Origin: Sipunculus nudus
Taxonomy: Eukaryota > Annelida > Sipuncula > Golfingiida > Sipunculidae
Direction: 5' to 3'
Assembly (NCBI GenBank): GCA_026874595.1
Contig: CM049317.1
Coordinates: forward strand, 14,870,882 to 14,934,881
Length of the DNA: 64,000 bases
In this document: in pieces, positions 1,844 to 56,200 of the stretch
Numbering within the stretch: the first letter of the stretch is position 1
Layout of the letters: the number at the start of each line of letters is the position of its first letter
Notes under the pieces: generated by a model
The model's input: the letters and a program-made list of their open reading frames with translations, nothing else
Told to the model about the DNA's origin: nothing
The model's database searches: none
Translations under genes and position numbers: made by a program

Positions 1844-4800
1844 CTGTTAATGGAAAAATTTAAAATATTTATTAAGTAACAGAAATATCATGTCTATGGT
1901 ATCTGAACATTCACACCACAGAATGTTATCTTGACTAGTGTTTGCCGGATGTGTAAGAGTCATAAATGCAAAGAATACAAAATCACTCAAGCCTGAGTGG
2001 TTTACAATTATACTCACAGAATCAGAGTTATTTGATAAATAAGTCTTAAACTGGTGAACATGGCCATTCACTACCGAATTCTAGATCTTGCATACAAGGA
2101 AATACGTGCATTTTTAAAACACTTGTAACTTAAAAAAATTTTATTTTGACATTTTTACTTTCAGAGCCCGAAAGGTTTAATAAATATACACTATGACAAG
2201 TATAAAAGTTTTATTAACAGTTAATCAAAAACAAATTTGTAGCAAGAGATAAACACCTACCTCCTCTCCACGAGCGATCCTTCGCTTAGCGATGATAATG
2301 ATCTTACTCTCTTTTTCAAATGCGACAACCTCAGCCACGCAGTTTGGCTGACATGAGTGGTTGATATAACGGGCGGGACCGCCGCACATGGTGGCGTCAA
2401 CCACAATCTGGTCGTCAATACGGAACATATACACACCACGGTTCTGTCAAGCAAACAACAAAGAATTCAGTGATAACATCTGTACGAAAGGCAAATTCAT
2501 GTGAAACATCAAAGCTTGTTCATAAATGGCTGGTGTTAACAACAATGATGTAAAATTGAAGAACCAATAGTTGGGATGGCTTGGAATGATTGACAATACA
2601 TTAGACATGCCAGGAACATCAGGACAAATTGGAGGTATCAGAAAATTTCCGGAAACACTGGTGTTACATCAAGAAATATTGGCATGAGGTCTGGAAATGA
2701 AATATATCTATATTAATATTATCTGTGTTGAGAAATAGCTTTTATAAGAAGAAAAGTTCTTATTTTCAGTTTCATCAACAAGAAGGATTAACTTGACTTA
2801 AAACTAAACTAAAACTTTCACAAATATGACTATCCCAAATTAGGTCTACTTTGGTTAGTCCCCATGGTGGTTGTAATGGTGGTGTTCCACTGTGTTTTCT
2901 CTCATAAAGTGATTTGCAAACAAAGAACTGTAATACTTGTGGTACTGTAAAACCCTATATGGTTACATCCCTGGCATACAACTATATTTGATTCTAACCA
3001 TGTGTTGATTTTGGATAAATGAATTATTCTCTATAAACTGAGCAGCAATATGGACTAAATATAATTCCACTGCTGTTGGTGACCACATACCTGTTGTTCA
3101 TATGCTTTCTCTCTGGTTTCAGCGACCTCGTTCCTGATCAATTCCCCGATGTACTCTATCACCATGGTGTGCTTCTCAAGGTCTCGAGCGGCAAACAGAC
3201 CCAGGCCCTGCAATATATAAAGAACAGCAAAGCTCTCAAACTGACATATCTATAGCATTCTGTTCAACCATAAGTTTGGCTGCCTGAAAAATTTAAAAAT
3301 CAGCTGACTGTTTGCAAATATAGGAAAGTGTTCACTGTATTACTACAGTTTTAAATACTTAACAGTTGAATATAATTTACAGATACTTTATTTAATACTC
3401 ATATCAACTAGAGCACTGAAAATGGTGCATAATATGCCGTCTCATACCTGGCGACCTCTGACCTTTTTAAATAATTGTGAATTCTGTTGAGAATGTAATA
3501 CAGGTGAGAAACTGTATTGGTTAATATTCATCATGAGTTTCATGAGAATCCTTAAGATTTTTGTTAAGTCTGATGACCTCTGACCTCATTAAATATGCAT
3601 GGGATTTGCTGGAAATCAAACCTAGGCAAGATATTATATTGATTAATATTTCTGCTGATTTTGATCAAAATCCATCACATTCATGGTAAGTTATCACGGT
3701 GACAACACAAAGTAGCCTAGCGACTTCTGACCTTCAAATGTGAGTGGATTTTGACCCAAATCAAACTCGGGAGGGATAATCTATTGGTCAGTAGTAACGG
3801 TGAGTTTTGGACCACGGGTATACCATAATACGTCTCATCATAGACCGGCCTATAAAAAGTCTCAATTTTATATAAGTCTCAGAGTCAAACCTGCAATGTG
3901 ACGGGCAGAGCAGCAAAGGTCTCACAATGAATTCAGACTTGTATTTACCTGTACATTGGAGCGTCTGAGGTAGACATTGTTACGCCACTCCGTCTTCAGA
4001 CGACGGTACTGTTGGGACTTGGAGTGTACAAACTGTTTGTTGTACGGTGAGTTGATGTCTCCTGTGAATCCTGTGACGGTGGAGGGGAGGGAGCGAGAAG
4101 AACCACTGGTTTGTAGTGTGTGTGGCCTGCAACAAAATAATAACAAAACAAATGTTAAACTTCTTAAGATTAAACTATGAAAACTGACAGATAGACTGAG
4201 CATTTTCAACTATTTTCTAGTGCTGAATTTGTATTATGAAAGTTAATGCCTGAGGTCTTGTTTCAATTACGTCTAATGTACATTCTTTAACCATTTTCTA
4301 ATATCAAATATTCCTGATTTAACTCATTCATGATATGATGATTACTTTTCGAAAATAGCTTTTCAAGAGTTTATATAACTTTAGTTTTACACTATAGTTT
4401 ACATAACTGCAAAAAAAAAAAAAAAACAAAAACTGAAAATATTAATATATTAGTCAAACTTTTAAAATATTTTCTTCTAATGCTCAAAACAAACTTTTCA
4501 CAACTTAATTCTTAATTTCTCTTGACAGCTTTTCCCAAATAATTTATAAATTGACAGAAATAATTGACGGATTAATTTTCAAAAGTAAATGAAAACCTTG
4601 CCAAGCTTACTAGACAAATAGACGTTTCAGTATTTTAAAATATAAATAATAACAAGATAATGTATAATTAAAAGAAACCAAAAATCCTGGCTTACTTTTT
4701 GAAGTGAGTCCGCAGCTTGGGTTCTGACCTTGCACAGCCTGTAGGGTTGATTGTCAGCGGAAGCTCAATCAGCAAGGAGCGGCCGTAACGGAAATGATAG

Positions 4801-7800
4801 TCAGGGATCAACTCCACTCCAGGCAGCTACAACAGTAAAGATATTACAAGAAGCTCGATCAGCAAGGAGCTGCCGTAACAGAAGTGATAGTCAGGGATCA
4901 ACTCCACTCCAGGCAGCTACAACAGTAAAGATAAAACAGTCCAGTCTCAGCAAGGAGAGACTGTAATAGAAATGATAACTGGAGATCAACTCCACTCCAG
5001 GCAGCTACAACAGTAAAGATATAACAGTCCAGTCTCAGCAAGGAGAGACCGTAATAGAAATGATAACTGGAGATCAACTCCACTCCAGGCAGCTACAACA
5101 GTAAAGATATAACAGTCCAGTCTAAGCAAGGAGAGACCGTAATAGAAATGATAACTGGAGATCAACTCCACTCCAGGCAGCTACAACAGTTAAGATATTA
5201 CAGTCCAGTCTCAGCAAGGAGAGACCGTAATAGAAATGATAACTGGAGATCAACTCCACTCCAGGCAGCTACAACAGTAAAGATAAAACAGTCCAGTCTC
5301 AGCAAGGAGAGACCGTAATAGAAATGATAACTGGAGATCAACTCCACTCCAGGCAGCTACAACAGTAAAGATATAACAGTCCAGTCTCAGCAAGGAGAGA
5401 CCGTAATAGAAATGATAACTGGAGATCAACTCCACTCCAGGCAGCTACAACAGTAAAGATATAACAGTCCAGTCTCAGCAAGGAGAGACCGTAATAGAAA
5501 TGATAACTGGAGATCAACTCCACTCCAGGCAGCTACAACAGTTAAGATATTACAGTCCAGTCTCAGCAAGGAGAGACCGTAATAGAAATGATAACTGGAG
5601 ATCAACTCCACTCCAGGCAACTACAACAGTAAAGATATAACAGTCCAGTCTCAGCAAGGAGAGACTGTAATAGAAATGATAACTGGAGATCAACTCCACT
5701 CCAGGCAGCTACAACAGTTAAGATATTACAGTCCAGTCTCAGCAAGGAGCGACCATAATGGAAATGATAATTGGAGATCAACTCCACTCCAGGCAGCTAC
5801 AATAGTTAAGATAATACAGTCCAGTCTCAGTAAACACAGCAGTGAAGATTCTACTTTTCAATGAAGATAAAGAAGTGGACACAATAGAAATTTCAGAAAC
5901 TGAGTATGGATAAAGACATTTTCAAGTTTTATGTATGCAAGAATCAGAGCAAGGTCATATAAATCCCTTGTATACCTGGACTGGAAATACTAAATTTCAA
6001 GAAATCCACAAATTTTGTGGATTTCTGAAAACTGCTGCCTATCTGTGTATCAGTTGGTTCAGCATTTTCTGAACATGAGGGTCCTTAACAACCTTTTCAA
6101 CAGTAATTAGAATATATGCAAATTGTGTATTAAATATAACCTTGGAAGAAAATACTATGTCATGAAATTGATACCAAATCATGGAATGCCCAGGTTTCAT
6201 TGCATTGTTTTACACAACTGCCCAGGTTAAACCTCTGGGGAAGCATATAACTGACCACAGTTGTCTTTCAGTTTGATAACAGTGGTGGCAATGAGGCATC
6301 TTCTATCAGTAAAACACCCTGTTTGAAGTTATATAAAGAATTTAAATGACAGTTCTACTCACAGATTCAATGATGCGGATCACACAGGGGTCAGTGAGTC
6401 CGTACAAGTCCTCTCCACTCATGAAGGGGGGGAACATCTTGACCAGGTCACAGTTCCTCCTCAGTTTCTCCAGGGGTTCCAGAACTTGCAGCCAAGCCTC
6501 TGTAAATATACACATATCCTTACTGATTAAATGAAAGACCACTATTATATTTTAGTACTGATGATCAATATGAATATAAATACAGTTTATAAGAGACAGT
6601 TACAGAACACAAAGCTGGATGCTGTAATATTAACACCATGAATCATATATTGGCCACTATTACTACCTACTTTTCAACAAATGTGAAAGTAAAACAGTTA
6701 AACACATTAGTGACCATATATTTAGTTACCATGGTTATATAAAACATTTTTAACTAGATATTTCTTCGCACCGCAGGTGCCATAGTATCCCCAGACAATT
6801 AATCCCCCCCCCCTTTAAGAATAGGCCCCCCCATCTTCAGCAACAATTAATATCAGACCACACTTAAGAAAAGGTCATTCTCATAGAAAAGGTCATGATC
6901 CAAATTTCAATATACATCATCCCCTAACCCATGTCTATGTATATGCAAGAAATCTGTCCATTAGTTTTTGACTTATAATGCTCACAATACTGTTAAGTGG
7001 CAATGATGGGGTATTAAACGGCACGAAAACAAGTAAAAGAATAACAGGTGGCACCAACGGTGGCCCGTACATGACAATACTTTCCAAGATCTTCGTTCAA
7101 GTTGATTTTTGGACCAATGCATGCATCCCTTATTGAGAAATTAATGATTTTGTGTGATTTTCACCATATATGGCAATATTCAAGGTCAAGGCCACTCATT
7201 GGAAAGGTCATGACCCCTATTCAAATAAACATTATTCTATAACCCATGTCTATGTATATGCATAATATGAAAGAAATTTGTCCATTAGTTTTTGACTTAT
7301 AATGCTCACAGGTTATAAATGTACTGTTAAGTGGCAATGATGGGGTATTAAACGGCACGAAAACAAGTAAAAGAATAACAGGTGGCGCCACCTGTTTCCG
7401 GTACATGACATTACTATCCAAGATCTTCGGTCAAGTTGATTTTTGGACCAATGCATGCATCCCTTATTGAGAAATTAATGATTTTGTGTGATTTTCACCA
7501 TATATGGCAATATTCAAGGTCAAGGCCACTCTCATAGGAAAGGTCATGACCCCAATTTAAATAAACATCATCCCATAACCCATATCTATGTATTTGCATA
7601 ATATGAAAGAAATCTGTCCATTAGTTTTTGACTTATAATGCTCACAGTACTGTCGAGTAGCAATTTTGGGGATATTAAACGGCATGAAAACAAGTAAAGA
7701 ATAATAGGTGGCGCCACCAGTTTCTGGAACATGACAACCCTATCCATGATCTTCGATCAACTTGATTTTGGGATCAATCCATGCAAGTTTTCTTGAGATA

Positions 7801-10800
7801 TTTAAGAATTTGTGTGATTTTCCCCAAAATTGGACATATTCAAGGTCAAGGTCTCTCTCCTAGTTGAGGTCATGACCTCATTTTAAATAGGCGTCGTCCT
7901 CTCACCCATATCTATACATATACCAAGTTTGGTAAAGATCTGTGAAATATTTTTTGAGTTATTGTGTCGAAAAGAAATCTCTGCGGCGGCGGCGGCGGCG
8001 CGACCGTGCCTAAACCATAGTATCTCCAGACTATGTCTGGCGATACAATTAATTTTCCCACAAGGAAAACCAGGGACACTACAGATTCTGGTATGAATTT
8101 GTAGATGCTGCAAAATTTGAGCTAGAATTTTCTACGGAGAAGTATTCTGGTGTCTGAAAATTCTTCCCCTACCTTTGGGTGTGTTTCCCTTGAACTCAAG
8201 GTCTTTAAATCCCTGCTCTATCACATTAAGACAAAACAGGGGCCTGCCTTCCAACTCCATGATGCTGGACACGTAGCGGCAACGCTTGTTTACCCGACGG
8301 AAGCTCCAGTAGTAGCGACTGCTCTTAAAGCCGATCTGTGCAAACAGACAAGAAGAAACAAAGTAAAAATTCAATTGATGATGCTGAGAAATGGGAACTT
8401 GAGTACATGCACCGTAGAACTCTGGTACTACAACCTTATCTACACAAAGATGATTAAGTTTCAACTGATGATGCTGAGAAATGGGAACTTGGAGTACATG
8501 CACTGTAGAACCCTGGTACTACAACCTTATCTACACAAAGATGATTAAGTTTTTGTGGATAGGAAACAGAAAGGCCATTTTAAGGCTTTCAATAGGATGA
8601 AAAATTTGAGTTTGGAATGTTCAGGCCGGGGGGGGGGGGGGGGATTCAACTGAGATGTTCGAGCATCCCAAGGACAGGGGATTATGTGTCAAAATTTAGT
8701 GGGTTATGTAAATTATTATTTTGTATTTTACTTCATTATCTTACCATTTTAAGGGTTATATATTGTGTCAACTGATAGTCTTGTTAAAGTGAAAAGTAAG
8801 GGTCAGCTGTCAGTGCAGTTTCTGATTGTTTTCTGAGATAGCTGCCAGTGACTAGAGACAGCTGCAGGAGATTCTTTTAGTTCTACAGTGCATTCCAATG
8901 CTCAGACACCCAGAACTTCCAAAAAGAGATTTTGAGTATCACAGATGCTTAACCTGGTGTACCTGAAAGCCTAGCATTTACAATACATTATGAGCATTCA
9001 ATGATCCATACAACCAGATGAGAGACAGACAGAATACACAAGGCTGGTTTGTGTTCCAGCCCAGATATGTGACGCTCATGGCTTACCGGGTAGATGTGGT
9101 CCCTGGTGTGGAACTTCCCTGTCTGGATCTGATGTGGCAGTAGCTGTCCGATGTGGTGGAAGATCACCGCCCCGACACGCACCGTGAACTTCTTGTCCTC
9201 CTGGTGGATGATACTGGAACCAAGAGAAAAGTCTTTGTAGTTTATTGCTACAGGGCACAGTAGAATATTTTTAAATGTTATCTGTTACCTCTATTGTCCA
9301 AACCATCAACAAACTGATTCAGGACTTAATGTCTGTGAAAGAAGAAACATATTAAAAAACATATATTTGTTCCATGTTAAATGCACATGAACAGTTTTCA
9401 AATGAAAAATAACCCTTAATAAATCCATAATTATTTTCAGTATCTATCTTCCCTTTAAAATTTACAAGAAGCTTGGGTGCTCAAATAATTTTATCTAAAT
9501 ACTTGTGAAATATATAAAAAAATCTCGTTAGAGTGAGATTTCCCCATGTTCACCCAGGGATAGAATGATTAAGCCAAAGGCAAACATGATATTTAACAAT
9601 TTCAGTAATCCAATGCCCCAGTTATTTCAGATGTATGTACTTAAACACAATGCACAGAGATGCAACAAAACTAAGGTAAGATTATTATTTCCTTGAGAAT
9701 TATTTTTTTGACATTCTGACTCACCATGCAACCTGTCTGTTCTCGTCGCGGTTAACATAGACTCGTCTGAATACTGTCAAGTCCAGTAGCTCATTCTCCC
9801 CCGCAATCTTGGGTTTGTGTAATGGACACAGGATAGTCTGAAAAGGAAATACAGCACCATGAAATACACTTTTAAATGTCATATAATGAAAGTAAACCTC
9901 TTAACCTGGAAAATTCATAATAAGTTGCATGTCCATAACAGCTCATTTTACAAACCAAATTATTTACCTATTTAGGCTGTACTTGTGTAGAACAGTGCCA
10001 TATTTGAGTGTAAACTGTAATTGTAAAATGCACATTTGCAACCACTATTCTATAATTTGAGGATATAGGCATGCACCCCCTTGCCCTTATTGAACACTAA
10101 CAGGTGTATTTCTCCAAGTTTCTTAAAACTGCTCAAGGTGGCTGACATTTTGTGTACACACTGTAACCTGGACTTCACAGGTTGGATGTCAAAATTTTGG
10201 GTACACCACTAGTTTAAATAATTTATTATTTTTTAAGATCCTTTTCGTTTCAAAATTACAAATTTTATTGGAGGGGGGGGGGAGGGAAAGGCTGCAGATT
10301 GTTAAACTTTAAAGTATGTTTACATAAAAGAAATGACAAGTGTAATGATACAAATTAATAGGCATAAATAACCCATCCCTACCTTGTCTTGGAAGAACAT
10401 GGCACCATCCTTGCGGGCGCAGTCAACATGGTAGATGAAATTGCAGCGCAGTTTGAAGCAGCCTACAGTCGCCCCAACCTTTTTACAGAAGGCACACTCG
10501 AGCATGAGACCTCGCTTGTAAGCTTGGTCAACATGCATCAGTGCTCCGTTCATTGTCTCGTAAACCTCATAGGACCACAATGCACAGTTCAGGTGTACCC
10601 ACTTCCCCGCATCCATGTTCAGCAACCTGTTATAATACAAAAAGTAAATATATCATAACCACACAAATTATATTAAAGATTTCCATGGAGTCTCACTGTG
10701 GTGATGAGCAAAAAATATCTCAAGCACAGAAGTTAACAAAATCCACATGATGTATTAAGTTACATGCATGATTTTTAATGAGTCATGTATATCAGCTTTT

Positions 10801-41200: not shown

Positions 41201-44200
41201 GGTTGCCAGCTGTATAAATGGTCCAAAATGGAATGTTTCCATTCTGTATCTATTTTTTTTATATATTTAATTCACAGAGGACTGAATAAGTAATAAAAAG
41301 TCAGTGACTAAAGCCTGGTATGGTAAAGGCCTGCTACTGTTATTTTACTTCAGAGCACTGTACAAGGTTATACAATATAAGACCTCTACAGTATATCATT
41401 ATATATACACAATATAATTTTGCTACAGTTAAATCATACATATCTCCTATGTATCATTAAACTATGTGCCCTGTGTACACTGATTTAAGCAGAATCTTAC
41501 ACAATTATACAGATACATTTTTTTAACTGGATAAAATAAGCAGAAGAGAGGAGAAAGAGATAATCAAATAATATACATAGGACTCTCTAAAGACATGAAA
41601 TGCAGCATAATACTATTATTTTATGTATATATAATAGTGTTAGGTAGATATATAATTATGTTATGTATTATAAGAATAAAAGTGAGGATTCTCAAAGACT
41701 GACAGAACTATGATGCAGAATCATAAACCTGATCAGAATATTACATATAATCAAACTGTAAGAAAAGAGCTGTATTTAACACAAACCATAAATATTCCAA
41801 TGCTGTTGTGACAGTTTCAAACACCATGGCAACATCAATAAAGCCATAGCAACATCAAATGTCACGGTTACATTTCTTACAGCAATGGCAACATCAAATG
41901 CCAGAGAGCCAATAAAGGTTGGTCAACTTTTTTACAATCTTAGTTAGGAATACATCAATAAAGAAACAAATTTATAGATATTTTCTGTCTAAAGATCACA
42001 CATTCATACTGCATATCATTTAATTCAGAAGTTCAGAAGAGTTGCTGCAGGAGTGAGAGGTTACGGCAGCGGTGAAGTTCAAAGGCACAATGCAAGCCCC
42101 TGCACCAGGGTTGACCTCATGACCCCTCGCGCCAAGGCAACCCATCTCATACCCTACACTCCTTACGTAGAGTGGTCATGATACATTTGTTCTGTTATTC
42201 ATTCCATTTAACCACTGATTGGAGTGGCTGGCCTAGCTGTACACAGCATCAGGGTCATCCAGCACTATTTGTGCTGTGCAAAAAATGTTCACAACTGGGA
42301 CCTAGCAATGAGCAAACATATTTTTAAAACAATTGATATTCAGGTAATATTTTCATAATCTGTTTGGAACTTAAATCATACCACCTTTCCTTTAGGCAAA
42401 AACAAGGTGTCAACAGCTGCTTATTGGTGGTATTTTTTCCAGCCATCATTTCTCCAGACTGACCTATCTTATCAGAAAGAGGCCTGAAGAAATTCAGGGA
42501 AGCCACCATACTGCTCTTATGATTCATACTGATCATAACAACCAGTGAGGATGAATCAGTAGTCACTGACACACATCTAGAATACCCCTCTCTCATTGGT
42601 GGGAACATTCTTTTCCTTGTGCCTGTACTCTGGAGAGACTTGTACAACAAAGCCAGCTCTTGCAAGCAGTGGGGAAAATGAAAACAGAACCAATGCATCA
42701 CAACCACTGCAAGAGTAGTTCTCGTACCCTACACCAGGCATTCAAGGCAAGATACAAAATGCAGTGTGTATTAAACAGTCCCTGGGCCACGCTTTTTAGA
42801 AGTTTAATGCATTGTATCAAACAGTTTTTAAACAAATACTCACCCCTGACACAAGCGTTAAGGGTCTGGCTTGGTTTAACATGCGGATGCGGTTTTGCAT
42901 GTACGTTTCATATTCCTGTCTCACGGCTTGTGGTAGCCTCATTGGCTGAGATTGGCCTGGCATTCTGGGAGGAGCTGGTCCTGATGGACCCGGCTGTACG
43001 AGGCCTGCTGGCTGCTGAGCGCCACCTGGTGGCATCTGTGACTGCACAGGACCTCCCCATGGCTGCCCAAATCTCTCCTGATTTACCAGGAACGGAAAAA
43101 TATATCATGTAGTATTAGTACGGAAGTATAAGGCTCTGTAAACATATCATTGATTTAATTTCAAGCCAGATATCCTGTATCTTGACAGTAAACACTAAGA
43201 CAGGAGGTCATGACCAGGACTAAAGGGTGAAATAACAAGGAATTTTTTTTTCTCCCACATTACATGGCCAAGTGAAACATCATTGGTGAAGAATGACTTT
43301 AACAACATCTGCTCAAGTTGTGATATCATATTATGATCAAGGTATCCGAGGCTGAATCTAATCTGTAATACACTTTATATGCAACATATCATGTAAGTCA
43401 TATTGTGATCTAAGTATCTGGCTTGAAGTTTAAACTGTAATATACTTTAAATGCATCAAACTCAGTAAATCATATCGTGATCAATGTATTACAATCCATG
43501 CAGTATTACAAGTTAATACCTGATACTTCAGACGGTAGTCCTGCAGGAACTGGTCGTGCTGTTTCTTGGCTTTACGGGCTGCTTCCAGCTGTTTCTGCAG
43601 CGTCTGGACCTCAGTCTGAACCTGTTCCAGCTGCTGGGCCTCGGCTGGAGGGAGCTCCTGTCCAATCTTCTTGGCCTGAAGACAACACCATAACCAGATC
43701 AACAAGTGATAACATGTCTACTGGTTTAATAAGCCATAGATATTATACATATGATATGTATATAGAAGTCATTTGGGGTCTGTTGCAATAAGATGACATA
43801 AGTCATGGATGTTCATGACTTCAGCTTTGGGCCATATAGTATATGTGTCACTATGGTAACCATTACAATGTCACAATAATAACAATAATATTTAAGCCAG
43901 TTACTGGGCTTAAGTCCGATAAAATGTTATAGCGACAGACCCCTGTATTCAAACCCGATCTTTCCTGTTTAGGGGAACTGGTATGATCTGATGCATTTGT
44001 GCTTTTAACACCATCTTAAACCGGCTGCCATTAACTTGCAGGTTCATTCAAAATTATGATAATACCATAAATTCCTTTCTGGTGAAAGTAGATCCTTGGC
44101 AGTTCATTTTACATAAAGGCATATGCAATATTAAATCTGTAGAAAAGCACGGTTCAGTTTTGTGTTTTCAAGTATTTATTCTACAGAAGTCAAACCAACT

Positions 44201-47200
44201 ACAGATTCTGTATTGAGAAACTATTTAGCAAGCGAAGTCAATCCCAGGGATAACCTCCAGGGCATGTTCTCTGATACAAGGACTCATAATAATTGTTACA
44301 AACCGTTGATCACTACAGTGTGCTATATAAAACCATATATATGACAGATATTTTACAGAACAGATCATTTAGATATGTCCAACAACGATGGCTGTATTTT
44401 TTTTTTAGACAGGTAGGTTACCATTACAGACCATCTTGAACATCTGAAGCATGACTTTTTCATTTATATTAAAATTCAGCATTAATAAACGTGATGTAAC
44501 ACAAAAAAGTAACAGTTATAAAGCTGTAAAACAGAACTGCAAATGAGGAACAGCGCAGGTATAACCTTTTGCCTGTTGCAGTCATCAGACAGTTGCTCTC
44601 TGGAATCAAGTGCTAAATCCTGGTAAAGAAAATAACGTGCAAGTATGTATATATCTAATTTGGAAGCCTCTATTTATGGGTCCCGCTGTTTAACAGGCAC
44701 CCCAAAATGACAGAAAGTCTGGTCCATAATTGTCAACTTGAGGGTGAGTAGCCTTCCTAATTCCAGCATCCCTTTACTTCAAACAAAAGCTGATCACCAA
44801 CTGGTATAGCCTATACCATGAATGGGACATATATATCCTGGAATAAATTAAAATGAGATGTCACTTTATGCAGGAACCTGAAGAGTACGTACATGTCACT
44901 GAATTTCTAAAGGCAATATTTAACACCTTTTTATTGAGAGGCAGCATATAAAATTTCATTTTTAAGAAGATCCAAAACTATAAATGTACTTAAATTTTTG
45001 GCTAAGCATCCTAGACCCCTGAAATACATGGTCCACTGAAGTCTAAATTTATAATTTATTTTAATAAAAAGCTCACAAAAAGTACTAGCCTACCTGTCTC
45101 TGCTTAGCTCCCAAGGACTTCTTAATCTTCCTTTGTTTGTTGATCTTCTGTTCCACGAAGCCAAGCTGAGTGTTGACAATCCTCGCTTGCTGCATCAGCC
45201 AGTCCTCATACTGCAAGTGCTGACGACGTTCCTCCTCTGTCAATGGCTGACCAGGTACCCCTTTTAACAGCAGAGTTAGCATCTTATCATCAGTGACATT
45301 CTCAAGCTGTCAGAACATTGTCCAAAGACTTAAATTCCTCATGCGTTAATATCTGTCCTTTGACTGCTATGTTGTGAAAATCATCAACAATCAGCTTTAT
45401 TCAATGAACCTTTTGCAGCAAATTTTATTTTTAATTAAGTTTCACTGAAGTAAATGCCTCAATAATAATGTTCCTAATATTATCAAACTGTCACTGAAGA
45501 GGTTCTCTACATGGACTCTAGTCGAGAAGCTAGCACTGCAACTCCATGTCAGAGTATGCATCAGATGGCCCCCTGGGCCGGCCAACCATGGTTTAAGCAC
45601 AGCCTGGTTTCTCAGGGAGAGAATGGCTATGCTTATCTAAAACCCTGCCATCTCCAGTTAACCATAGACCATATACTGTTCAACTCTTTCAGGTCCACTT
45701 GGAAACAAAGTAAAAACTGTGACACTTTGATATGGTTATCTTTCAACTCAATTTACGAAGGTAAAAAGGCATTGACAAAACAAATAATATTCAACTTTAG
45801 GTAATTCTCCACTTGAAATATCACACTGATCTGAAGAACAAATGATGCACTGTTTTATCTTTATGTGCTTTGATTAATCTAGTCCTACCATTACCATTTA
45901 CTGACCAGCATCTGTGTTTACACTCCTGGACATGTATTAAAATGCATTAAACATAGCAAGTGACAAGTATACATCTATGGTTATATATGAAATATATTGA
46001 GGGCACCCACAAACTCATGCCTGTCTACTATTGTAACCACCATCCAGTGCTTTTGCTATCACTACTGGGAAGTGCAAGGACTAACATGAACTTTAGTATT
46101 AAATCCACAAACACAAAGTAAAGACTCCAACTGCTCAACTTATGAAATATTGTATAACAATTATGAGGATAGGCAATTATGATATGATCTAGGAAAAACT
46201 ACACCATCACCCAAAAGCACATGGCTGGGAACAGGGACTTTCATTATACAAATACTTTACCAACACCTGGTTGTGGAACACAAACACATACATACACACA
46301 CACATACTCACCTGGTGGTGGGAGTGGCGGTCTGGGGGGCGGGACAGGCAGCGTGGGAGACTGCGTGGCAGGACTGGGTGCATGGGGACCCACGCCCTGG
46401 GGAGACTGGCTTGGGAACGGAGAAGGGGTGCGGGGGCTCAGCTGGGGGCCAGGAGGGCGCGGTCCAAAAGGCATACCCTGAGGTGACATGGCGTCTGGTC
46501 GGGGGCCTGGGGTAGTTCCTGGCCCCGTCCAGCCCTGCTCAGGAGGATGTTGCAGCCTGAAATGTAAGCCAAGATGTTCCAGTATTATTACAAAGACACA
46601 TCTCTTTACTCGAGCTATTGCTAAAACATATAAAGCCAGAGGAACAGCATCATTTCCTGGAGTTCCCCTTTTGCTGAAAGTTGAAGGTGCCACAGCTCAG
46701 TTTTGGAGCTCCTCTGAAATGCCTTGGGTAAAAAGGGTAAATGTGAAAAATTTACCTTTTGTATTTTATGAATTTCTTAGATTGTATTGGTAACACACTG
46801 GTAACAGGTATTAGTAATAACTTTTGTCATTTTATCAAGCTGATATTTTCTTTGTTCGATTTTTTGGTGAATGTTGGCTGTTCTGAAGTACTATCCGTAA
46901 TGTTGCTTTTGTTATTGTTCATGCAAATGATGAAGAAATGGTCATTTAAACCTAAGTTTAATCATTAAGCAAAACTGAAACTCTTCTGTCCTGGCCATGC
47001 ATATAATAACTCATTGAAATATAATAATCATAGCAATAAAAATAATACAACTCTCAAGTAGTTATAACACTTAAAGAAATGGAAAATTTTCATAAAATAC
47101 ATATTTATATGAAAGCAAGACTCCTTATGCCACGTTTCATGCAGTGTTATTACTGTACAAGCAGTGCTTGATTTAAATGTTCAGTACGAGTGCAATTAAT

Positions 47201-50200
47201 GCATTGAATCAATTAAAAGAGTGCATTTAATTGGTTTCTCAATACACAAATCCAAAGTTGCAAAGTGATGGCCTAAAAGTGTGACTAACATATCAATTAA
47301 TATATTTCCATAGGCACAATTTCATTAATATATACAAATCATTTCCATGTTTGGTGGTTAGTGTTTCTTTTAGCAAGATCACTCAAGTTCTCAACCAACT
47401 AAAAATGGTTGAGAAACAGGTCCTTGTAAAGAAGGAAATCTGCACCTGTGGAAATATGCATAATGCCACTTGTAACAGATGGTAAAACAAAATCACTCAT
47501 TTGTCAATTCATGCTATACTGAACACTAATTTTCTATGAATAAAAATGCAGATGTGTACTAATTGATGTATTTCATACTAAGTGTTTATCTCTACTGCTA
47601 AATGTTCTGGTAATTTGGTCATATCATGCATGATACATTATTACAATCAACAAAAACATAAAATAAGTGCTTACTTTATAAAAGCATTGCACTTATTCAA
47701 TTTAATTCAGTGTGTTTTTCAATCCTAAACGTGATCAAAAAGCCATCTCAGGATCACAGGTCCTTCTTTTATTTAATATTCATAATGTCAAGTGACAACT
47801 CTTACCATGGTACCTCTGGCTGGCACCTGTTAAAGTCACAGACAGCACAACAAACTGCAGACTTTGGCTTTCTGCATATTTAGAATATTCTTTTTTTTTT
47901 CAAATCAATAGTGAATCAGGCACCTTTTCTAATTTTTGGTTTGACAGTGAGTGAGTTTAACTGTGATTAAAAGCCCATGTAATATAATCATCTCTTAAAA
48001 AGAAGAGTAGTGTAACCAGGGGATTAAAACTTTTTTTTTTTTTTTTTTATAAATGGGGGGCCTCAACAGTTACCTGTTAAAATTGCAATAAATTTGCAAT
48101 TTGTAATAAATATGTTTAAACTTTATTAAGTTTTTTTACAGTTGTTACATAAAAGTGTCAACAGGACCCACATGAACTTGAGATGAACACAATATACATG
48201 AAGTGCAGCACATAACGTTTTTTACCTGCTGATGAGCGTCCGCATGGATGGACGTTCAGCGTGACTTACCTCGGGGGCTGCTGGTCCACAATCATGGTCT
48301 GCTCGGCCTGTCTTTTCTGCTCTTGTTTCTCCTGAGGAGCCAACAATCAAAACCATGAAGAAAATACATACATCATCAGCGGAACTAGGCCACACAATGA
48401 TAAACACTGCTGTCTTCATATCAACTCTTCTCTATCCCTTTTTAATTACAGTAGAGCTTCGTTTATCCGAAAAGCTCGGGAGGAAGGGTTTTTGTTCAGA
48501 GAAACTATCGTTCAGATTACCCAACTAGATATTATCAGATACTGAAAGACTCAAATAGACCTTAACAACAACATTTCTGTAAAGTTTTCCATCAATTTAA
48601 TCAATGCAGAATATAAAATACATTGAAAGCATTGCATATTGGTCCTGGAATATAAATTTGCATTCCTTTTGATTGCCATATTTTCCCCCCCAAACTTTCC
48701 AAATTTTTGTTCATTGGTCAGATTTAGGATAAATGATCAAAGAAATGGTACCATTCAAAAATGTTCCTGTTGTGTACATCTTTGAAAGTCGCTATGTGCC
48801 CCCCTGCCCCTGGACCATAACAAGCTTTGCTTTATGGAGGATTCCAATCTGGTGTTTAATGGATCATATATCAGTTTCATGTGGCATAGGAATAAACAGC
48901 AATGGAATCCAGCATAGGAAAACTACACCAACTCGGATTATACAAGTTAGACATACGGCACAGGTGCAAGGGGTCAGCTCTAGGAGTCATGATCCCCTTA
49001 GTTTCAAATTGTGCAAGATACTGAACGTAAATATATCCACACAGTTGCTTTGATAACGATGCCACATGGTTATCCCTGGGGGTGTACACCAGCTACCTGA
49101 TTGGTTAACTTGCCTCATTCATATTCAGGAAGTTGGCCGCTCTCTGATAGAAGTTATTTAAATGCATGAGCAACCGCTCTCTTTGTGTGTGATAAAGAAG
49201 TACTCTGTTCCACCAGAACTGTCCATATGTTTTGTAAGACTTTTCTAATTTATTATGATAGGACTAAAATTCAGATGCCATTACAGGAAGTAGCATGGGA
49301 ATTTAGGATAATCTCAGTAGGAATGAACTAAATGTATTTACTTTGTAATGGCATTCATAACAACACTAATACATCTATTATATTTTAAACTTGATCAAAA
49401 TTGTATGTTTAGTCAGAAATAATATTATGAGCAATACCCTAATTAACAGGACCTAGGTAATAACTGTGTTTATAAAGGTATACCTAATGTTTGTGTGTTT
49501 ATAGAATCAAAAGAAAGCTACCTGCTCAACCAAGTCCTGCAGAAGTAGGGGCTGCTCGTCCAACAACAGGGTGCGCTGTTGTCTGCCAGGCTGCTGAGCC
49601 TTCTGCTGGTACGGAGGAGGAGGCATCCTGGGTCCCAGGCCTGGTCCCGATATCGGTGGATGAGCCATTCTCTCCTGTGCTGCACCAGGTTGTTGTGGGG
49701 GTCTCTGGGCCTGGCTGGAGGGAGGCATGGCTCCGGGTACAGGAGGGAAGCGTGCCCCTGGTGGCATCTGCTGTTGCTGGGATACTGGCTGCCCCTGGAG
49801 CCCCATATGGTGTTGCTGGTTCTGAGGCATCCCTGGTATGTGCGGGCGAGGCATGGGCTGGCCCGGTATCTGCTGCAAAGGCTGGCCAGGCACTTGAGAC
49901 ATCGGGATTTGTGATATTGCTGGCCCAGGAGGTCGCTGGGGCATTGGTTGACCTTGAACTTGTGTCATTGGTTGACCTTGCATCTGAGGCACAGCCTGAC
50001 TTTGCTGCATCTGTTGACCTTGAACTTGTTGCATAGGCTGACCTGGCTGCATGGGCTGACCTTGAACTTGTTGCATGGGCTGACCTGGCTGCATGGGCTG
50101 ACCTTGAACTTGCTGCATGGGCTGACCTGGTTGCATGGGCTGACTTTGAACTTGCTGCATGGGCTGCCCTGGCTGCATGGGTTGACCTTGTGACATCGGC

Positions 50201-53200
50201 TGCCCCGGGTGCCACGGGCGGGTGGTGTTTGGCATGCCTTCCATTTGTCCAGGCATCATGACCTGGTGACCTCCAGGGAATCGTTGAATGTGCTGAGAAA
50301 AGCCCGGCCTCATCTGCATGTGCCCTGGTGGCATCCCTCTCTGAATAAACTGGCCGTGCTGTGGCATCATGCCAGGGCGCTGTCCAGGCATCATACCACC
50401 TTGTGTTGATACAATATGAGGTCCAGAAACTCCACCTTGCCCTTGCATTGATACCATAAAACGCTGCATCTCATGACCTTGTAAGTGCACCATCTGACCT
50501 TGACTCGTTACCATCTGCTGTATGGACGCTGGATGGTGACCCATGTGCGGTGGCTGTGGCGTACCAGATGGAGTTGGCGTTGATGTTGGCGTTCTTGGCG
50601 GGACACCCATGGGGACCTGCTGGTTACTCATGGGACCCCCTCTGGGAGACAACTGCGGAGTCTCTGATCTGGAGTGTGGATGAGGAGACGACCCAGAGAG
50701 TGGAGAGCTGATACCAACCAGCCTCGGTGATGGCTGAGAACCAAAGGAGGGTGGTCCAGATCGATGCTGTACTTTGGGGCTTGGTGGTACGCTCCCTGGA
50801 CTGATAACGCTTGGTGTGCTGGGCTGGCTGCCACCAGCAGGAGAAGCCTGTGGCGTCTGAGATTCTGTAGAAGGCTGCTGTGACTGGACTAGTACTGCAT
50901 GAGGCGTTGATGGAAGCTGGACTGGTATATTTTGGTTCACTATCATTCCCGTCGCAGGACTCCCACTGGAATTTCCCGTCATTGTCACCGGGGAATTAGT
51001 ACTGGAGGAGCTGGCAGAGGTCGCAGTCTGATCACCAGGGCAGTTGTGGCCATCTGTGCAAACAGAAACTGATGCTGACTGTGTGCTATTCGGGGGTTGT
51101 TGTGAGGCTGGTGAGCCATCATTTTCTCCACAATGAATCCCGTCAGCACATACATTCTGATTTCCCGAAGTATTTGGCAGGTTGTCATTTTCACCGCAGT
51201 GAATCCCATCAGAACAAGCATTTTGGGAACCAGAACTCTGGGGCTGGTTATTATCATTTTCACCACAATGAATGCCATCAGAACACCCATTCCCTGAATT
51301 GGTATTTTGTGGATTATCATTTTCACCACAATGTTTGCCATCTGTACAGGTGTTACCAGATGGTTGTTGATTATCATTTTCACCACAATGTATGCCATCT
51401 GTGCAAGTGTTACCAGATGGTTGTTGATTATCATTTTCACCACAATGTATGCCATCTGTGCAGGTGTTACCAGATGGTTGTTGATTATCATTTTCACCAC
51501 AATGTATGCCATCTGTGCAGGTGTTACCAGATGGTTGCTGATTATCATTTTCACCACAATGTATGCCATCTGTGCAGGTCTTACCAGATTGTTGCTGATT
51601 ATCATTTTCACCACAATGTATGCCATCTGTGCAGGTGTTACCAGATGATTGTTGATTATCATTTTCACCACAATGTATGCCATCTGTACAGGTGTTACCA
51701 GATGGTTGCTGATCATTTTCACCACAATGAATGCCATCTGTGCAGGTGTTACCAGATGGTTGTTGATTATCATTTTCACCACAATGTATGCCATCTGTAC
51801 AGGTGTTACCAGATGGTTGCTGATCGTTTTCACCACAATGTATGCCATCTGTGCAGGTGTTACCAGATTGTTGCTGATTATCATTTTCACCACAATGTAT
51901 GCCATCTGTGCAGGTGTTAACAGATGGTTGCTGATTATCATTTTCACCACAATGTATGCCATCTGTACAGGTGTTACCAGATGGTTGCTGATTATCATTT
52001 TCACCACAATGTATGCCATCTGTGCAGGTGTTACCAGATGTTTGCTGATCATTTTCACCACAATGTATGCCATCTGTACAGGTGTTACCAGATGGTTGCC
52101 GATCATTTTCACCACAATGTATGCCATCTGTGCAGGTGTTTCCAGATGCTTGCTGATTATCATTTTCACCACAATGCATGCCATCTGTGCAGGTGTTACC
52201 AGATGGTTGCTTATTATCATTTTCACCACAATGTATGCCATCTGTGCAGGTGTTACCAGATGGTTGCTGATTATCATTTTCACCACAATGTATTCCATCT
52301 GTGCAGGTGTTTCCAGATGTTTGCTGTTCATTTTCACCACAATGTATGCCATCTGTGCAGGTGTTACCAGATGGTTGCTGATTATCATTTTCACCACAAT
52401 GTATGCCATCTGTGCAGGTGTTACCAGATTGTTGCTGATTATCATTTTCACCACAATGTATGCCATCTGTGCAGGTGTTACCAGATGATTGTTGATTATC
52501 ATTTTCACAACAATGTATGCCATCTGTACAGGTGTTACCAGATGGTTGCTGATCATTTTCACCACAATGTATGCCATCTGTGCAGGTGTTACCAGATGAT
52601 TGTTGATTATCATTTTCACCACAATGTATGCCATCTGTACAGGTGTTACCAGATGGTTGCTGATCATTTTCACCACAATGAATGCCATCTGTGCAGGTGT
52701 TACCAGATGGTTGCTGATTATCATTTTCACCACAATGTATGCCATCCGTGCATGTATTATTAGATGGTTGCTGATCGTTTTCACCACAATGTATGCCATC
52801 TGTGCAGGTGTTACCAGATGGTTGCTGATTATCATTTTCACCACAATGTATGCCATCTGTGCAGGTGTTACCAGATGGTTGCCGAACATTTTCACCACAC
52901 TGTATGCCATCTGAACAAACATTTGAATTATTTGGTTTATTTCCCTCCTCCCCACAGTGCACACCATCGGTGCATGACCCAGATGGAATGTTTCTATTGT
53001 CACCACAATGGAGCCCATCAGGGCAAGTCCTGCCTGAGTTTGTATCTTTTGGCACATCGTTGTTTTCACCACAGTGTAAGCCGTCAGAACATGCAGTCCC
53101 CCCACTGTCATCACAGTGTAAACCATCTGAGCATTTTACCTGTGCTGCAGACTGGTAATTTTGAGTACTCCTACCATTACCAGTGTTTTTATCCTCCCCA

Positions 53201-56200
53201 CAATGCAACCCATCTGTGCATATATTCCCTGAGTGACTAGAACTGGATTGCTGCTGCCTTGTATCACCCTCCCCACAATGTCTGCCATCACTACAACCCC
53301 CCTCGTTATTTGATGGGGTATACCCCTTGTTTTCCCCACAATGTTTCCCATCTGAACACATCTGCTGCCTATTTTCTTCTTCACCACAATGTTTACCATC
53401 TGTACACTGACTTTGACCTTCACTTTCACCACAATGTTTACCATCTGTACATTGACCTTGACCTTCATTTTCACCACAATGTACTCCATCTGTGCATTGC
53501 TGACTTTGACCTTCGTTTTCACCACAATGTTTACCATCTGTACACTGACCTTGACCTTCATTTTCCCCACAATGTTTACCATCTGTACAATGACCTTGAC
53601 CTTCATTTTCACCACAATGTACTCCATCTGTACATAGACCTTGACCTTCATTTTCACCACAATGTTTACCATCTGTACATTGACCCTGACCTTTTTCACC
53701 ACAGTGTACTCCATCAGTACAAGACTCGCTCTTCCCACTATCCTCTTCTCCGCAATGCTTACCACTGTCAGAGTCGGGAGCACTGACAGATGAGGTGGTA
53801 CTGTCACTAATAGCAGCCGGAGGAGTTTGTGACCACACTTGTTCTGCTGGATCTGTTGTGACTGGAGACGGACCCTTCTGAGCACCCTGTGGTGGGCTGG
53901 TAGACGCCGTTGCCGGTCCAGGTGGTGAAGGACTGGTTCCTGTTGCAGGCTGAACACTTGGTATACTCTGAAACACAACAGGGGTAGGTTCAGCCTGTGA
54001 CTGTGCAGCTGGTGATTTCTGCGAGACGCTCCCTGTTGGTGTACCTGGTAAGGAGCCACTGGTTGGAGTTCCGGGCAATGCGGTGGCCGTGGGGGTACCT
54101 GGCGGTAAGCTACCAGTTGGTGTACCTTGACGACTTGAAGCTGATGGTGAGGGCTTCATACCTTCCTGAGGAAGTTTACTGCAGCTTGTAAAAGAGCTCT
54201 TGGAGTCCCCATCTTCTGATTTAACACTAGGGGTAGGACTGCCATTCCCCACACTATCTCTTGGTGTCCCTGGCTGTGAGGACTGCAAGGACACTGGAGG
54301 TGTGACAGAGTTCGAGCGCGACCGCATACTGCCAACAGTTGCAGCAACCCTACTATCAGTATCAAAGCTCTGCTTTTTACTGAATTCCAGAAACTGTGCC
54401 TGGAAGTCTGATTGCGCTCTGGACAAGGCGGCCTGGGCTACAGGTTGGAACTGTGGTGATGTCGCTTGCTGCTGTTTTACAGGACCAGCGGAGCCACCTG
54501 GCGATGGTAAGGGACCTGGGGACTTCTGCACAGGGCTTGCCACATGTGGTGATGGGACTGGATGCGAAAGAGCAGAAACTGGTGTACGTTTTCCTGAACT
54601 TGATGGACTCCTTTTACCAGAGCTTGCAGGACTGCTAACAGATGCAGGACTAGCCTTTTCTTGCGTCTTTGCTTGGTCCATTTGCCTTAAGGCACCTGGT
54701 ATATGTGGACCTCGGATCATTTCTGTTCCATCAGGTTTCTTCAGACCAAGGTGCTCGTCAAACATTGTTTTGTCATATTCCTCAGCCAGCATGCTCTGCA
54801 GCTCAGGATCAGCATAATCCATCATCGGGAAAGTCTCTCCTGAAACAAAATAACTCTGTTAGTTCTATGACTCTATATCCATGTTCACATTAACGGGCTT
54901 CATCGATTATCAAAATGCTTCTAACATGATACAAGCACTGACTTTACAGAAGACAGGATCACTGTTTATGATCAGAATAGGTACAAGAAATGGCAATATG
55001 AACAAAGAATATTTTATCTCAAATACAGTTTATTATCTTTTGCCCTTTTTTAAGGCTGTATCTGTGATTGGTCACACCAGCACAGCATTTGCATATCAAT
55101 AATTCTGCAACTTAAAACATATGGACAATCAAAACACCTACCTATCAGATCTTCCAACTGTTCAATGGGTTTTTCCGGATGCGGTTTGCCATCAGGGCCT
55201 GTGGCTGTGAGTTGCGTGGCAGGGTGTGATGTCACAGGGACAACTGAAGATACAGGCTGACCAAGACTGGGTGTTGTGGTGGTCCCGACCTGCCCAGGCA
55301 TTCTCTGCATCATAGCTGCACCTTGAGGACTCTGTGGACAAATCAACACCATATACTATATAGTCTGAACAAGATAATATGGTCAATACAAGATGTCACA
55401 ATCAAAACCAGATGTTATGTCAAAGCTGGATATTTATGGTCATTCTAGCAACAAAGTGCATTAAAAATTTAATATCCCTCACCTATGTGGAATTAGAAAT
55501 ATTAAATTATCAAGTATATGGTTCTGCATCTAACTGCAATGGAAAACTATTCAGCTTATTGAGTTCAAATCAGAAAACTTCAGTCACCACCTCAGTATTT
55601 TTAAAGGCTGGCCGAGGCCAGTTTCTCAATTTAGTAGTTTCTGGCAAAATAGTTCAATTGGGTTCTTCAGTTTTCTATCTTGCCTTCAGTGTTGGGGTTA
55701 AGATTAATGGTCTTAATTGAAGATGTTTTTACACATTGACTGGGCTTTTGATACTAGCTCTAGATTATCAATTAGAGCAGTTATACTTCTCACATGATGC
55801 TACTTGAGAATACATGAGGATAAAACCACACATGCTTGAAAAAATCTAATTGTGTTGAAACTCTGCCACTAACTTTTTTTTTAAAGATATGTCAATGGCC
55901 GGCTTGTGGCAATGTCAATACGGAATATCACTCACACTGATACTCTTGTGTGTGGAGGCAGTAAACGACTGCCTGCTTGAAAAACAACAGGCAAACACCA
56001 AGTGCCCCTAGTGTCAAACCTGACTAGCCCATTCATTCAACACAGCCATGTGTGTACTGGGCAGTGTTTTTTATTAGCGATCATTATGATACTTATAAAT
56101 TATCATTTTTATTATGCTGTGTTAAAAAATATTACAAAAACATGTAAAAACAGGAGAAATTGCTGCATTCGACATAGATTTTGATCTTGTCTCAACTGCC

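Follow-up and report, generated by a model that had tools for sequence, protein, structure and literature searches.

The window considered here is a stretch of 64,000 nucleotides from the sipunculan worm Sipunculus nudus (GenBank assembly GCA_026874595.1, contig CM049317.1, positions 14,870,882 to 14,934,881 of the forward strand), and positions are counted from its first base. Its minus strand carries parts of a gene whose identification as KMT2C/D is supported by domain matches, and one long exon that appears to belong to the same gene contains a tandem array of about 49 copies of a nine-residue motif rich in cysteine and histidine. The array, its exon and the neighbouring exons are as follows, with splice sites read from the sequence.

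49522 to 54839, minus strand: single 5318-bp exon containing the array, with acceptor TTTGTTTCAG and donor GTAGCT
51034 to 53772, minus strand: the array, 48 units of C-[TSAP]-D-G-x-H-C-G-E plus one decayed unit, delimited by motif counts
53746 to 53772, minus strand: the decayed unit (unit 0), SDSGKHCGE, which precedes unit 1 and was recognised by a loose rule (at least four of the seven constant residues)
51349 to 52863, minus strand: homogenised core, units 17-43, with a unit length of 54 or 57 bp, delimited by comparing the DNA of the units
55142 to 55331, minus strand: preceding exon, 190 bp, joined in phase
48270 to 48331, minus strand: following exon, 62 bp, joined in phase

The minus-strand frame that surrounds the array runs from stop to stop at 49507-54858, a distance of 1783 codons without a stop, and contains 48 matches to C.DG..C. 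A sequence-only reading of this DNA had proposed about 48 tandem Cys/His units in one open exon, and both that number and, within a few bases, the proposed extent are confirmed (unit 0 starts at 53772 and unit 48 ends at 51034). When nine-residue windows of the exon protein are instead collected with at least four of the seven constant residues of C.DG.HCGE, 49 are found, 48 of which have at least five, compared with a mean of 0.035 and a maximum of 2 in 200 shuffles of the same protein. Each unit is 14-30 residues long and contributes two Cys and one His; the spacer that follows the motif varies from 5 to 21 residues (units 1-47) and is rich in N, Q, S, G and P. Units 1 to 48 span 896 residues, of which 97 are Cys and 49 are His, with only two further Cys elsewhere in that frame, one of them in the decayed unit, and the array is acidic, with a net charge of -118. 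Units 17-43 show 91-96% likeness in their DNA and multi-unit periods of 111 and 279 bp, whereas units 1-16 and 44-48 have differing spacer lengths, unlike the 54/57-bp core. The assembly report (PMC10212961) gives an N50 of 14 kb for its HiFi reads; this is far longer than the 2.7-kb array, and the number of units in the assembly is therefore likely sound.

The predicted splice phases place the array in frame within one exon, as the sequence-only reading had held: the junction with 55142-55331 is in phase 1 and that with 48270-48331 in phase 0, and the 1856 joined codons contain no stop. These joins also bear on the suggestion that the array, as an exonic intron or part of a rare isoform, is missing from most mature mRNA and matters only in a tissue-specific isoform. 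That the exon keeps phase with both neighbours while remaining open throughout, together with the in-frame selection described below, makes this a highly improbable account.

There is strong evidence that the motif residues are kept by selection on the protein. Because the core units are so alike, their constancy alone proves little, and the evidence comes from the 22 diverged units (0-16 and 44-48), a separation from the core that was made after the units had been seen. The first count used C.DG..C and so forced those residues to be present, a bias most of which is removed by the loose rule. Across the 49 units, C7 and G4 are retained in 49, C1 and D3 in 48 and H6 in 47. Among the diverged units, the ratio of nonsynonymous to synonymous differences per site (pN/pS) is 0.018 for the two Cys codons (bootstrap 0.000-0.064), 0.081 for the seven constant positions (0.021-0.146) and 0.153 for H6, G8 and E9, which the strict rule does not require (0.016-0.358), as against 0.847 at the free positions 2 and 5 (0.70-1.09), all of these intervals coming from a bootstrap that assumes independent units, which tandem units are not. 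When units 2-8, seven that resemble one another, are excluded, the ratios for the remaining 15 of the 22 are 0.102 at the seven constant positions, 0.022 at the two Cys and 0.79 at the two free positions. The sequence-only reading had named equal synonymous and nonsynonymous rates at the Cys and His codons as the result that would speak against selection; instead the single-codon ratios are 0.030 at C1, 0.000 at C7 and 0.058 at H6, values that are biased low since pS can exceed 1 with two-fold codons and transition bias (1.14 at C1, 1.17 at H6). The comparison of pN between positions within the motif is unaffected by this bias, and it separates G4 and C7 (both 0.000), C1 (0.034), D3 and H6 (both 0.068), E9 (0.112) and G8 (0.140) from the unconstrained positions 2 (0.398) and 5 (0.573). 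A drifting satellite, which was considered as a candidate, is rejected by these position-wise rates.

A related but distinct proposal is a coding minisatellite, spread by unequal exchange in a tolerant linker, in which only the open frame is needed and the motif has no function. The high likeness and multi-unit periods of the core are what such a process would leave, and positions 2 and 5 do evolve almost freely. The same exon also holds a second coding tandem repeat (49996-50190; 42-bp period, 91% matches), from which it follows that the exon tolerates in-frame expansion. However, the ratio of 0.081 at the seven constant positions, compared with 0.85 at the two free ones, opposes this proposal strongly. 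So does the frame control in the 21 strict diverged units, in which the true frame gives 0.195 over nine codons and the five other frames 0.385 to 3.2; we consider a functionless minisatellite very unlikely. The core is less informative: in its 27 units alone, one wrong frame, antisense +1, is also low (0.18). The expectation that the motif would be more constant than the spacers holds there in direction, with nonsynonymous to synonymous changes of 2:10 in the motif and 15:14 in the spacer, but does not reach significance (Fisher p = 0.079), and when each variant type is counted once the contrast is 2:4 and 10:6 (p = 0.35).

The case for KMT2C/D as the host gene comes from further features on the same strand, listed here from the lowest coordinate.

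2228 to 2446, minus strand: open frame with part of a SET domain, whose best solved relatives are KMT2D and KMT2C (PDB and profile match)
6345 to 6551, minus strand: open frame with FYRC (profile match)
8255 to 8335, minus strand: second half of FYRN (profile match)
8991 to 9284, minus strand: open frame with the first half of FYRN (profile match of 23.8 bits, just below the 24-bit cut-off)
10386 to 10595, minus strand: extended PHD (ePHD; zf-HC5HC2H), best solved relative KMT2D (profile and PDB match)
43484 to 43717, minus strand: charged segment downstream of the array, given as an open frame rather than exon bounds, without a KMT2 match in PDB
45088 to 45309, minus strand: segment resembling the ...EEWLF...CAKQR stretch of KMT2D, likewise given as an open frame and compared with a human stretch

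Among solved structures, the 62-residue SET segment is closest to KMT2D (E-value 1e-27), followed by KMT2C (6.3e-26) and KMT2A (1.9e-18), and the ePHD (zf-HC5HC2H_2, 1.3e-13) likewise has KMT2D as its best solved relative (1.4e-23). FYRC matches its profile at 1.8e-11, FYRN is split into two pieces, one of them 0.2 bits below the cut-off, and both lie between the ePHD and the SET domain. Three minus-strand PHD matches on C12, the contig of the window (C12:14954235, 14961570 and 14962313, among the 150 of 1146 candidates that were scored), lie roughly 29-37 kb upstream of the exon with the array and form a candidate N-terminal PHD cluster that may share a transcript with it. The locus thus shares with the H3K4 methyltransferases KMT2C and KMT2D (MLL3 and MLL4) a SET domain, FYRC, FYRN, an ePHD and a PHD cluster further upstream, all on one strand and arranged as expected. 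These matches agree with the KMT2C/D identity suggested by the sequence-only reading; the molluscan setting that it had suggested for its checks is incorrect, the host being S. nudus. KMT2C/D proteins are expected to carry two ePHDs; a single one of the eight genome matches to PF13771 falls on C12, namely the C-terminal ePHD, and a second may be hidden by exon splitting. None of the 32 genome matches to PF00505 (HMG box) falls on C12, in a search that can miss weak or exon-split matches.

PDB searches that used the beginning of the array exon and two downstream open frames returned no KMT2 match, and one of these queries matched repetitive chains named Scone and Cake. The link between the array exon and the gene, which we regard as probable, therefore depends on the shared strand, the order of the domains, the fit of the splice phases and alignments to stretches of human KMT2D. 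The alignment scores against these stretches were reached by 0, 1 and 0 of 2000 shuffles, the start of the exon accounting for a 0 and the end of the exon with the next exon for the 1. These two parts resemble segments of human KMT2D, TDPEL...FNEHL and LPLLIEDLLEHE, which we take to flank a linker some 240 residues long that has a single Cys. By comparison, the worm linker fills most of a 5.3-kb exon and has about 49 Cys/His units. If the human segments are placed correctly, the array enlarges a disordered linker that existed before it.

The gene also contains an 88-bp tandem repeat at 4769-5830, with 12 copies of the splice-acceptor-like sequence CTTTACTGTTGTAG followed by LPGVELI..YHF..., a sequence resembling the last part of the FYRC region in KMT2 proteins. 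The copy at the lowest coordinate (first base 4826) reads through to a splice donor, GTAAGC, and seems to be the genuine exon, and the 11 copies upstream of it look like repeated acceptors and exon starts.

At the DNA level, the motif appears confined to this exon. All 44 matches to a motif DNA pattern in the S. nudus genome (1.43 Gb) lie in the array exon, the reversed control gave none, and of the 48 strict units the four that the pattern misses deviate at positions that it fixes. The array protein gave 70 matches in the genome at E up to 1, of which 11 are in the array and 59 elsewhere, the latter with 21-41% identity and E of 3.3e-5 or weaker. The best of the non-array matches lie at C9:47807944-47809539 (26-27% identity; E 3.3e-5 and 2.0e-4). 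Beyond S. nudus, the one animal genome covered, viral contigs gave two pattern matches, neither of which was confirmed. In prokaryote genomes, one of nine was, consisting of two motif units in an HNH-domain protein of a member of the Krumholzibacteriia (L013 2001-2108); this is probably a coincidence, because about nine chance matches are expected in the collection by a rough estimate. No published account of such an array was found in the literature on KMT2C/KMT2D in Lophotrochozoa, KMT2D in Sipuncula, KMT2D tandem repeats, cysteine-rich regions or disorder, or zinc-binding cysteine-rich repeats in invertebrate histone methyltransferases. The accessible text of a study reporting annelids with a kmt2c/d ortholog mentions no repeat (PMC12153100), and the main text of a study of cadmium stress in S. 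nudus, as far as it is available, contains neither KMT2 nor methyltransferase (PMC13359629).

A separate observation concerns the assembly itself. Ten of 11 COX1 matches have stop-free open frames of 489-578 amino acids under the standard code, nine with nearly equal scores; the sites are L010 1231-2964 (G000:C60) and contigs C61, C62, C66, C72, C74, C75, C89 and C123. The match at L010 sits in a bacterial-type cox operon, and some unplaced assembly contigs look bacterial.

What the selected motif does can be approached from its form. The reading we prefer, tentatively and with somewhat less than even confidence, is that autonomous metal-binding loops have been multiplied in a disordered linker and now form a translated, selected part of S. 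nudus KMT2C/D. In the stretch that separates the N-terminal PHD fingers from the C-terminal ePHD-FYR-SET portion, a nine-residue motif would have expanded to some 49 copies. Each copy would probably act alone as a short loop around a single soft metal ion, for which zinc is the likeliest candidate. C1, H6 and C7 would be the ligands, perhaps joined by D3 or E9, and the D-G pair, which hardly varies, would form the turn. Together, about 49 loops may make a multivalent, acidic, metal-loaded tether through which metal supply could shift how compact the methyltransferase is at enhancers or how far it associates with itself. The spacers, with their range of 5 to 21 residues, make the units look autonomous rather than cooperating parts of one fold, and constraint at C1, D3, G4, H6 and C7, a free position 5 and variable spacers suit a small loop closing on one metal ion. 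An AlphaFold model of a four-unit piece, built with an alignment of the 43 other four-unit windows of the array, has no fold (mean predicted local distance difference test, pLDDT, 40.9; predicted template modelling score, pTM, 0.14), as may be expected of a chain whose order depends on a metal.

Several observations weigh against metal-binding loops. The disorder of the model would be equally expected of a docking motif. H6 is replaced in two of the 49 units (by Q and N), E9 in three and G8 in three. No Pfam family, zinc-finger or other, matches the whole exon at E up to 1 and no NCBIfam profile matches it at 0.1, so that the curated zinc-finger and zinc-knuckle families in both are without a match, and pieces of the array matched no PDB chain by sequence at E up to 10. 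The array is known from one species and from genomic sequence alone, and metal binding is a prediction; we infer that the array is expressed, binds metal and affects the enzyme.

The same features admit another reading, in which the motif is a short linear site where a protein partner docks and its repetition allows multivalent recruitment; the thiols need not then bind metal. The brief conserved core, the disordered spacers of varying length, the many copies and the lack of a predicted fold would all suit it, and other disordered transcription proteins with repeated motifs offer a parallel. The partner is putative, however, and two almost fixed Cys and a His in every unit would be a costly and unusual way to build a docking site; we rate this explanation as a serious but rather unlikely one. 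The abundance of thiols, 97 Cys in 896 residues with a pN/pS of 0.018 at C1 and C7, could alternatively point to a redox or condensate module in which CX5C pairs form or exchange disulfides within or between chains, so that redox state sets the self-association of the enzyme. Disordered regions of vertebrate MLL4 are reported to drive condensates (PMC10423695), which lends this proposal some plausibility. It leaves the constraint on D3, G4 and H6 unexplained, however, and the nucleus is a reducing environment, for which reasons we judge it unlikely.

Metal-binding loops of this kind can be compared with several known systems. Like metallothioneins, the array has repeated Cys motifs able to bind soft metals, and snail metallothioneins have likewise grown by tandem domains; it differs from them in having two Cys and one His per 14-30-residue unit and in forming part of a very large enzyme. 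CCHC zinc knuckles (CX2CX4HX4C) share the Cys, then X4, then His, but the array motif lacks the first CX2C, has its second Cys directly after the His and has no Pfam match. The condensate-forming region of MLL4 is similar in being a large disordered region with a scaffold role in the same enzyme, a likeness by description only, and in the part of the study available it is not described as Cys-rich (PMC10423695).

In its most far-reaching form, the metal-binding proposal would make the array a metal sensor built into the enzyme: the degree to which its roughly 49 loops are occupied by zinc or copper would determine how compact or clustered KMT2C/D is, and metal supply would thereby act directly on enhancer marking in this animal; we regard this as unlikely. 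KMT2C/D proteins have large disordered linkers that are little understood, and about 49 constrained Cys/His copies in a single linker would provide a clean test of what such linkers can do, whether metal binding, partner recruitment or clustering. The array is also a coding minisatellite whose own units reveal the selection acting on each residue.

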